The notes under the pieces are model-generated. The model was not told the DNA's origin, searched no databases, and was given only the letters and a program-made list of their open reading frames with translations. From Thermoplasmata archaeon (GTDB taxonomy: Archaea; Thermoplasmatota; Thermoplasmata; Lutacidiplasmatales; UBA184), in contig DASPVQ010000020.1 in NCBI GenBank assembly GCA_035622275.1, forward strand, positions 150,067 through 214,066: a stretch of DNA of 64,000 nucleotides, written 5' to 3'. Below, piece by piece: positions 23,441 through 62,527 of this stretch. Position 1 is the stretch's first letter, and every line of letters begins with the position of its first letter. The position numbers were made by a program, and so were the translations under genes.

Positions 23441-24550
23441 ATGTCGGTCGAACCGTCGGCGGCCCGAGCGGCGGCGGTCGGCGCGGACTCGCCGTTCGGC
23501 AAGGCCCGCGGCATGGTCTTCCCGCGGATCGTGCTCGCGGGCCACGGAGTGCTCAACGAGCTGGGGGCCGCCTGCCACCAGTTCGACTTCGCGGACACGG
23601 GCGCCGTCGTGACCGGCTCGACCACCGCGCTGCTCGCGGGGAACCGGGCCGTCGAGATCCTGCGCGCCGACGGCTTCCGGGCCGAGGCGGTCCTCGCGGG
23701 TGAGGCGACCGAGGCGGAGGTCGACCGGGTTGCCGCCGAGGTGCGCGCGAAAGGCGCCCGGTTCCTGATCGCCGCGGGCGGCGGCAGCAAGATCGACATC
23801 ACCAAGGTCGTGGCCTACCGGCTCCGGATCCCGTTCGTGAGCCTCCCCACGTCGGCCGCGCACGACGGCATCTCCTCGCCGCGCGCGACGCTCCACGGCA
23901 GCGAGCGGACGACGAGCATCGAGGCGGCGGTGCCGATCGGGATCATCGCTGACACCGAGGTGATCGTCCGGGCGCCGTTCCGCCTGCTCGCTTCCGGCTG
24001 CGCGGACGTGATCTCGAACGTCACCGCGGTGCTCGACTGGCATCTCGCGGTGCGGCTCAAGGGCGAGGAGTTCTCGAGCACGGCGGCGACGCTCAGCGAG
24101 TACGCGGCCCGCGAGATCATGGACCACGCGAGTTCGATCAAGCCCGGGCTCGAGGAGTCGGTCTGGATCGCGATCCGTCCGATGATCGTCGCGGGGATCG
24201 CCATGAGCGTCGCGGGCTCGTCGCGCCCCTGCTCCGGTAGCGAGCACCTGTTCAGCCACGCGCTCGACCGCGTCGCCCAGCATCCGAGCCTGCACGGCGA
24301 GCAGTGCGGGGTCGGTGCGATCATGATGATGTACCTGCACGGCGGCGACTGGCAGCGCGTGCAGTCCGCGCTCCGAAGCGTCGGCGCGCCGATCACCGCG
24401 GACCAGCTCGGCGTGTCGGCCGACGAGGTGGTCAAAGCGCTCGTCCTCGCGCACACGCTGCGCCCCGAGCGCTACACGATCCTGGGCGACAACGGCCTCA
24501 CCCGCGAGGCCGCCGAGCGGCTCGCGACGCGGACCGGGGTGATCGGTTGA
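23441..24550 (+). CDS. egsA: sn-Glycerol-1-phosphate dehydrogenase
   Basis: The 369-residue protein reduces dihydroxyacetone phosphate to sn-glycerol-1-phosphate, the backbone of archaeal lipids. AAGGGSKIDITK binds NAD(P)H, LPTSAAHDGISSPRA is the substrate loop, and the zinc ligands come from SGCADVISN, GSEHLFSHAL and LHGEQCG. Length and motifs are normal. The ATG lies about 37 bases after a CTAA-containing TATA-like element near 23402. Its TGA overlaps the ATG of the UPF0179 gene, so the two are coupled. It is one of the strongest signs that this DNA is archaeal. Confidence 0.96.
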   Translation: MSVEPSAARAAAVGADSPFGKARGMVFPRIVLAGHGVLNELGAACHQFDFADTGAVVTGSTTALLAGNRAVEILRADGFRAEAVLAGEATEAEVDRVAAEVRAKGARFLIAAGGGSKIDITKVVAYRLRIPFVSLPTSAAHDGISSPRATLHGSERTTSIEAAVPIGIIADTEVIVRAPFRLLASGCADVISNVTAVLDWHLAVRLKGEEFSSTAATLSEYAAREIMDHASSIKPGLEESVWIAIRPMIVAGIAMSVAGSSRPCSGSEHLFSHALDRVAQHPSLHGEQCGVGAIMMMYLHGGDWQRVQSALRSVGAPITADQLGVSADEVVKALVLAHTLRPERYTILGDNGLTREAAERLATRTGVIG

Positions 24551-24988: not shown

Positions 24989-25097
24989 GGGGCTGTGGGG
25001 TAGCTACGGACGCGAGGCCCGAACCTCCGTCCGCTCTACTGGTCCATCCTTCGGGCTTTGGGAGCCCGGGACCCCGATTCAAATTCGGGCAGCCCCA
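24989..25097 (+). tRNA. tRNA-Pro (UGG) with a 34-nt D-loop insertion
   Basis: The acceptor arms GGGGCTG (24989-24995) and CAGCCCC (25090-25096) pair perfectly, with discriminator A25097 and no encoded CCA. The anticodon stem CGGGC/GCCCG (25052-25056, 25064-25068) holds the loop TTTGGGA, anticodon TGG at 25059-25061. The T-arm is CCCGA-TTCAAAT-TCGGG. The D-arm is split: GGGGTAGCT ends at 25005 and TGGTCCATCC resumes at 25040. The 34 bases between fold as CGGACG/CGTCCG plus GAGG/CCTC with one bulged C. Removing 25006-25039 gives a 75-nt tRNA. The ends are not certain because CTAC occurs at both borders and no strict bulge-helix-bulge is seen. Confidence 0.85.
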
Positions 25098-48926: not shown

Positions 48927-49032
48927 GCCCGTGTGGGGTAGCTACGAGCTGGGACCGCTTCCCGCTCGCTGCACTGGATTATCCTAGAGGCCTGCGGAGC
49001 CTCAGACCTGGGTTCGAATCCCAGCACGGGCG
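48927..49032 (+). tRNA. tRNA-Arg (GCG) with a 31-nt D-loop insertion
   Basis: Acceptor arms GCCCGTG (48927-48933) and CACGGGC (49025-49031) pair, with discriminator G49032 and no CCA. The anticodon stem GAGGC/GCCTC holds the loop CTGCGGA, with GCG at 48994-48996. The T-arm is CTGGG-TTCGAAT-CCCAG. The D-arm breaks after GGGGTAGCT (ends 48943) and resumes at TGGATTATCC (48975). The 31-base insertion folds as CGAGC/GCTCG plus GGGA/TCCC with a single bulged T, and ends CTGCAC. Removing 48944-48974 gives a 75-nt tRNA. Location, border bases and architecture match the tRNA-Pro insertion at 25006-25039. Confidence 0.85.
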
Positions 49033-62384: not shown

Positions 62385-62422
62385 GCCCTCCGCGGGTCAG
62401 CGCTGAGACGCTCTACTCCCTG

Positions 62423-62527
62423 CATCGCGTTCCCTTCGCGGGCATTACCCCGATCAGGTTCCTGGGGTCGACGGGGCGCACCCCGTCCTCTCAGCCGGTG
62501 ACCAGCTCCCCCTTACCCGACCGCGAA
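62423..62527 (-). ncRNA. TPP riboswitch (THI element)
   Basis: On the minus strand the conserved THI-box pieces appear in order: GGGGAGC and GGCTGAGAGG, then AACCTGATC, GGGTAATGCCCGCG and AAGGGAACG, with a variable hairpin GACGGGG/CCCCGTC between. TCGCG (near 62522-62527) can pair with CGCGA (near 62424-62428) to close the outer stem. It lies between a minus-strand TATA box and thiB, and should reduce thiBPQ expression when thiamine pyrophosphate is bound. Confidence 0.92.

Follow-up and report, generated by a model that had tools for sequence, protein, structure and literature searches.

This locus raises the question of how a tRNA gene that is interrupted within its D-loop could still give rise to a working tRNA. 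The gene, a tRNA-Pro(UGG) on the plus strand, lies at positions 24989-25097 of the 64,000-nucleotide stretch of DNA analysed here (the window), and a direct reading of the sequence bears out the earlier note in placing a 34-nt insertion at 25006-25039. The host, a soil archaeon of the Thermoplasmata (Lutacidiplasmatales), has a genome of 1.73 Mb in 29 contigs that is 97% complete; a glycerol-1-phosphate dehydrogenase gene at 23441-24550 of the window matches MAGs labelled Thermoplasmata. Lutacidiplasmatales are archaea of acidic soils with about 69% G+C, and introns are not mentioned in the main text of the paper on this group (PMC9287336).

Apart from the D-arm, the acceptor (GGGGCTG/CAGCCCC), the anticodon arm (loop TTTGGGA) and the T-arm (CCCGA-TTCAAAT-TCGGG) are all standard. 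The 5′ exon stops at GGGGTAGCT (25005) and the 3′ exon resumes with TGGTCC (25040), which puts the intron site between nt 17 and the residue preceding G18, with a predicted spliced junction GGGGTAGCT^TGGTCCATCC. The parts of the gene are given below; within the bulges and at the borders the caret marks a predicted cut.

24989-25097 (+): tRNA-Pro(UGG) gene with D-loop intron; precursor of 109 nt, 75 nt after excision
24989-25005 (+): 5′ exon GGGGCTGTGGGGTAGCT (nt 1-17); same D-arm in intronless tRNA-Pro(CGG) L024 and tRNA-Pro(UGG) L279
25000-25003 (+): central helix H, 5′ strand (GUAG)
25004-25006 (+): 5′ bulge CU^A; predicted cleavage after 25005, layout conserved in relatives
25006-25039 (+): predicted 34-nt intron, from the empty-site comparison of GTAGCT^A...C^TGG with GTAGCTTGG and from covariation
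25007-25033 (+): intron hairpin h′ (CGGACG/CGUCCG, bulged C, GAGG/CCUC)
25034-25037 (+): central helix H, 3′ strand CUCU (G-C, A-U, U.C mismatch, G.U)
25038-25040 (+): 3′ bulge AC^U; predicted cleavage after 25039, A25038 invariant in 73/73 distinct introns
25040-25097 (+): 3′ exon TGGTCC..., including anticodon arm and T-arm
25059-25061 (+): anticodon TGG

In its intact form the gene was missed by ARAGORN and by Rfam at the gathering threshold, and a permissive scan with the Rfam tRNA model gave no match in the 300-nt locus, a silence caused by the D-loop insertion. When 25006-25039 was removed, ARAGORN called a tRNA-Pro(tgg) of 75 nt, in agreement with the earlier claim that excision leaves a tRNA of this length with a normal D-loop. 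This acceptance could not be taken as proof of the exact splice site, since 197 of the 218 distinct deletion products that the program accepted were also called tRNA-Pro; the borders therefore rest on comparison with empty sites. Intronless tRNA-Pro(CGG) (L024) and tRNA-Pro(GGG) (L115) genes are found in the same genome, and the sequence GTGGGGTAGCTTGGTCCATCCTT of the former equals the window gene minus 25006-25039. In relatives, tRNA-Pro(UGG) itself is found devoid of the insert in a sister genus (g4; L106-L108 and L111) and in another family of the same order (f3; L279, GTAGCTTGGTCCATCC). The D-arm left by excision is identical to those of L024 and L279, and the empty site GTAGCT-TGG can be derived from GTAGCTA...CTGG in one way only. 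Exact excision thus leaves a standard tRNA with empty-site homologues (L024, L279 and L106-L108, besides the ARAGORN call), and the borders 25006-25039 proposed earlier hold, both by these homologues and by the covariation of the hairpin that they delimit.

The hairpin read by eye in the earlier note, CGGACG/CGTCCG plus GAGG/CCTC with one bulged C, proved to be the minimum free energy (MFE) structure, and the whole pre-tRNA folds with z = -2.99. A helix next to the junction with at least 3/4 pairs, combined with a 6/6 outer stem, arose in 0.016% of shuffled 34-mers. The search for the same insert in related genomes, which the earlier note had proposed, was carried out in 101 genomes of the family, from which the loci were retrieved, and yielded 75 tRNA-Pro(UGG) loci that carry the intron, in 73 distinct versions of 30-36 nt, all at one site. 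These distinct introns fall nearly all within one family, and within the genus the insert is nearly always present; the exons are near-invariant across relatives, with G18, G19 and A21 kept. A covariance model of the precursors, applied to 300 genomes of the class, recovered full-length genes with the intron in the family and in two families besides (G200 = L268 and G172 = L269); in the rest of the class the best-scoring matches listed were 73-75 nt long. By lineage code, carriers of the Pro intron are f1, f28 and f13, and g4 and f3 are without it.

Among 22 diverse sequences the hairpin shows 91.9% paired cells, with two-sided changes in 9 of its 10 pairs. None of 500 shuffles reached any of the five covariation measures, and sliding the partner by one column abolished the signal. 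When all 73 introns are taken, the six outer pairs form in 89% of cells, against 72% with shuffled partners (maximum 76% in 1000 shuffles). Given the rarity of such a structure among shuffled sequences, its retention at one position in about 75 genomes and its strong covariation, a chance origin of the insert structure is excluded. Judged by these alignments, the compensatory changes reflect selection acting on the insert. Conservation and covariation together indicate a spliced non-canonical tRNA intron rather than a retained loop or a pseudogene, and the insert almost certainly has to be cut out for the tRNA to work.

An archaeal bulge-helix-bulge (BHB) motif reads, from the 5′ side, as the exon strand of the central helix H, a bulge of 3 nt, the helix of the intron, the other (3′) strand of H and a further 3-nt bulge; cleavage takes place in each bulge after its second base, ahead of the third. 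The strict hBHBh′ form, with a 4-bp central helix, two 3-nt bulges and helices on both sides, is absent from the Pro gene of the window, as had been noted before. The same note had gone on to regard the splice sites, or even the route, as unclear, and here a correction is due, for the junctions of the intron conform to the relaxed HBh′ form with a central helix, two 3-nt junction bulges and an intron-side helix. Here GUAG/CUCU makes 3/4 pairs between the bulges CU^A and AC^U, the intron-side helix is present and the exon-side helix has 0 bp, and the cuts placed by the HBh′ rule coincide exactly with the empty-site borders. In 68 of the 73 introns H makes three or more pairs, and the A at position 1 of the 3′ bulge and the C at position 1 of the H 3′ strand are invariant; H reaches 4/4 (GUAG/CUAC) in genus g3 and in the Pro gene of family f28. 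A second register is possible because the conserved CUCUAC of this genus also allows GUAG to pair with CUAC at 25036-25039. This register is chosen by single-sequence MFE and makes 4/4 pairs in 60/73 introns, and it leaves the 3′ site without a bulge.

The Pro gene is not the only interrupted tRNA gene of this genome. A tRNA-Arg(GCG) gene in the same window (48927-49031, plus strand) carries a 31-nt D-loop intron (48944-48974) at the same site as that of tRNA-Pro(UGG), with H = GUAG/CUGC at 4/4 pairs and the bulges CU^A and AC^U. It is conserved in the genus and in g4. Relatives of it are L270-L276, L278 and L280-L282, and in the 12/12 tRNA-Arg(GCG) introns examined H is 4/4 as CUAC, CUGC or CUAU. 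When the weak Rfam tRNA matches of the own genome were read individually, further tRNAs with insertions were recognized. D-loop insertions occur in Pro(UGG), Arg(GCG), initiator Met and Lys(UUU), and T-loop insertions near 59/60 occur in Lys(UUU) and in eleven further genes (L199, L201-L204, L206, L208, L209 and L028-L030), namely Ala(GGC), Ser(GCU), Ser(GGA), Ser(CGA), Gln(CUG), Gly(UCC), Arg(UCG), Arg(UCU), Asp(GUC), Asn(GUU) and Glu(CUC). A full hBHBh′ with the T-stem as exon helix is formed with 4/4 pairs by the T-loop introns of Lys, Gly and Arg(UCG), and with 3/4 pairs by those of Ala, Ser(GCU), Ser(CGA) and Arg(UCU). The motif scan gave no borders for Gln, Ser(GGA), Asp, Asn and Glu, and it overlooked the initiator Met motif, which was read by eye. 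In initiator tRNA-Met and tRNA-Lys(UUU) (L198 and L207; C17 and C13 of the own genome) the D-loop insertions lie after G18G19, with 4-bp H helices that read by eye as CAGG/CCUG and UAGG/CCUA, respectively; tRNA-Lys(UUU) has its T-loop intron in addition to the D-loop one. Anticodon-loop introns were found in Met (L021), Tyr (L022), Leu(UAA) (L027) and Trp (L205), so that of the approximately 44 tRNA genes detected about 15 have non-canonical introns and 4 have an intron in the anticodon loop. The tRNA-Trp intron (C27 of the own genome) is long, and in other archaea an intron of this kind in tRNA-Trp holds a C/D-box guide RNA. The window of this archaeal genome also contains a TPP riboswitch aptamer (62414-62522, minus strand) scoring 57.6 bits, above the Rfam cut-off.

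Both enzymes that such introns would call for are encoded in the genome, a splicing endonuclease and an RtcB-type ligase (L267). A single EndA gene (L061:1471-2535, minus strand) predicts a protein of 354 aa with two N-domain/catalytic-domain units per chain, which by this organization is of the fused alpha′2 type, with the layout of the A. fulgidus enzyme; its catalytic Tyr/His/Lys are conserved in aligned relatives. Longer EndA frames of about 540 aa, considered as a fusion with the upstream pyrE, were dismissed as out-of-frame read-through of GC-rich DNA. By sequence comparison, the catalytic unit of this EndA, like that of its aligned relatives, runs from the YG motif to the LxLS strand without a CSL/ASL insertion; in A. 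pernix the CSL site is K44, between YYG and LRLS, and the equivalent position here is devoid of any insertion. A KTGRAV insert in the catalytic half, relative to A. fulgidus, was rejected as a broad-specificity loop, since it sits after the LxLS strand and has equivalents in M. jannaschii and M. kandleri. The predicted protein thus appears to be distinct from the broad-specificity enzymes, which are (alpha-beta)2 or epsilon2 with CSL/ASL, or have a Lys loop or extra units. The N-terminal unit bears a strongly conserved, family-wide insertion, LPRGGxLxKTPSxYWV, relative to A. fulgidus.

According to reviews, alpha′2 and alpha4 EndA cut strict BHB only, and relaxed sites need an (alpha-beta)2 or epsilon2 EndA with the CSL/ASL loop (PMC6379350, PMC12397907). 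The alpha′2 enzyme was likewise described as narrow, acting on strict BHB motifs only, and in 2014 no alpha2 archaeon other than the loop-bearing Korarchaeum was known to have non-canonical introns (PMC4033280). The A. fulgidus enzyme itself can, nevertheless, remove relaxed (BHL) 37/38 introns from full-length pre-tRNA (cited in PMC6379350). The T-loop introns of our genome are close to strict BHB and may need no relaxed enzyme, while its D-loop introns would.

Taken together, the insert is very probably a non-canonical archaeal D-loop tRNA intron of the HBh′ form, cut by EndA and ligated by RtcB, in the sole tRNA-Pro(UGG) gene found. Transcription, cleavage at these phosphates and ligation are here deduced from sequence. 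In the transcript, base pairing between the exon GUAG and the terminal stretch of the intron, adjoining the intron hairpin, would build the HBh′ motif; the cuts of the fused two-unit EndA would then fall in the bulges CU^A and AC^U, and the exons would be joined by RtcB into a normal 75-nt tRNA-Pro. The fit of the junctions to the relaxed BHB makes this ordinary EndA plus RtcB route likely. Counting against it are the one mismatch and one G.U of H in this genus, the second register with its 4/4 pairs in 60/73 introns, and an alpha′2-type EndA devoid of the CSL/ASL insertion, a type described as cutting strict BHB only.

Could the hairpin instead simply be retained, the tRNA-Pro(UGG) of this group having an expanded D-loop with an extra stem-loop? 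The conserved structure, its near-constant presence within the genus and the general variability of D-loop length among tRNAs would agree with this, yet a rigid 10-bp stem just before the invariant G18G19 would be expected to disturb the D-loop/T-loop contacts, and the insert sequence is unconserved whereas the exon bases are near-invariant. Furthermore, the sister genus and the sister family do without the insert in an otherwise unchanged tRNA, a retained loop would have no need of the conserved junction elements (the GUAG complement and the 3-nt bulges), and a BHB-type layout recurs where other tRNAs of this genome have insertions in the D-loop or T-loop, all of which makes retention very unlikely. 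Still more remote, to the point of being hardly credible, is a pseudogene, a disrupted gene or an assembly artefact, with tRNA-Pro(UGG) supplied by another gene. The absence of the gene from the ARAGORN and Rfam results would be in keeping with it; however, the insert recurs in about 75 separate genomes, the exons are intact and near-invariant, and the compensatory changes point to selection on the insert. Another complete tRNA-Pro(UGG), which the earlier note had named as the sign of a pseudogene, was looked for, and the tRNAs detected in this genome, which is 97% complete, include no further UGG gene.

Somewhat more room, while still improbable, is left for splicing by a route other than EndA at the HBh′ site, either by another nuclease or by an EndA that reads the GUAG/CUAC register or the whole intron hairpin. 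The 4/4 pairing of that register in most of the introns, as well as an EndA type reported to be narrow (PMC6379350) and devoid of CSL/ASL, speak for it. On the other side, the register with two proper 3-nt bulges suits the introns of other lineages and every Arg(GCG) intron tested, the invariant A and C occupy the first positions of the 3′ bulge and of the H 3′ strand in that register, and full hBHBh′ motifs are seen in several T-loop introns of this genome. Self-splicing offers no alternative route: the insert is only 34 nt long and has no Rfam match at the locus, and it does not qualify as a group I or group II intron.

The preferred reading, an intron of the HBh′ form, finds its closest parallels in the Thermoproteales, where short introns at D-arm and T-arm sites with relaxed HBh′/hBH motifs also affect tRNA-Pro(UGG). 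Those introns belong to a different phylum and lie at different sites, as in Pyrobaculum islandicum tRNA-Pro(UGG) at 25/26 and 56/57 (PMC4090602). The Thermoproteales EndA is (alpha-beta)2, in Crenarchaeota with the CSL loop, whereas here the Pro intron lies in the nt 17/18 region and the predicted EndA is a fused alpha′2 form devoid of the loop. Korarchaeum likewise combines a homodimer-type (alpha2) EndA with non-canonical introns, but its EndA is reported to have the specific loop (PMC4033280), where the Lutacidiplasmatales EndA has no insertion. The canonical 37/38 introns of Euryarchaeota, with the same presumed enzymes, are strict BHB, unlike the relaxed HBh′ of our D-loop intron, and anticodon-loop introns are present here too. 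Atabeyarchaeia and Freyarchaeia are, like our host, soil or wetland archaea with many introns at non-canonical positions, but they are Asgard and the introns affect 92-95% of their tRNA genes (PMC11291895), compared with about 19 of the 44 detected here. The earlier reading as a D-loop intron is supported. The same note gave Thermoproteota as the main known source of D-loop introns; the host is a thermoplasmatal lineage outside that phylum. In the literature searched there is no description of a D-loop intron for this lineage, and the insert has the hallmarks of a known kind, the spliced-type non-canonical tRNA intron, new for the lineage within that literature.

At the practical level, such genes call for caution in annotation, as the tRNA finders used miss or under-score them, and genomes can consequently appear to be without tRNA-Pro(UGG), initiator Met and others. 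With regard to the biology of the family, reviews tie relaxed or displaced tRNA introns to special EndA architectures outside most Euryarchaeota, and here a soil Thermoplasmata family whose single-copy tRNA genes carry conserved D-loop introns has an alpha′2 enzyme of ordinary appearance. Owing to this mismatch, one recombinant protein and a handful of short RNAs would allow a direct test of how enzyme loop and intron type are linked. Perhaps, and we offer this tentatively, at somewhat under even chances, a loop-less fused alpha′2 EndA processes D-loop HBh′ introns in Lutacidiplasmatales, in which about a third of the tRNA genes would bear non-canonical introns. If this is true, there would be an exception, with a solution of its own, to the rule that introns spread through acquisition of the loop; the conserved LPRGGxLxKTPS segment in the N-terminal unit of EndA, or a reading of the pre-tRNA as a whole, would be candidates for that solution.
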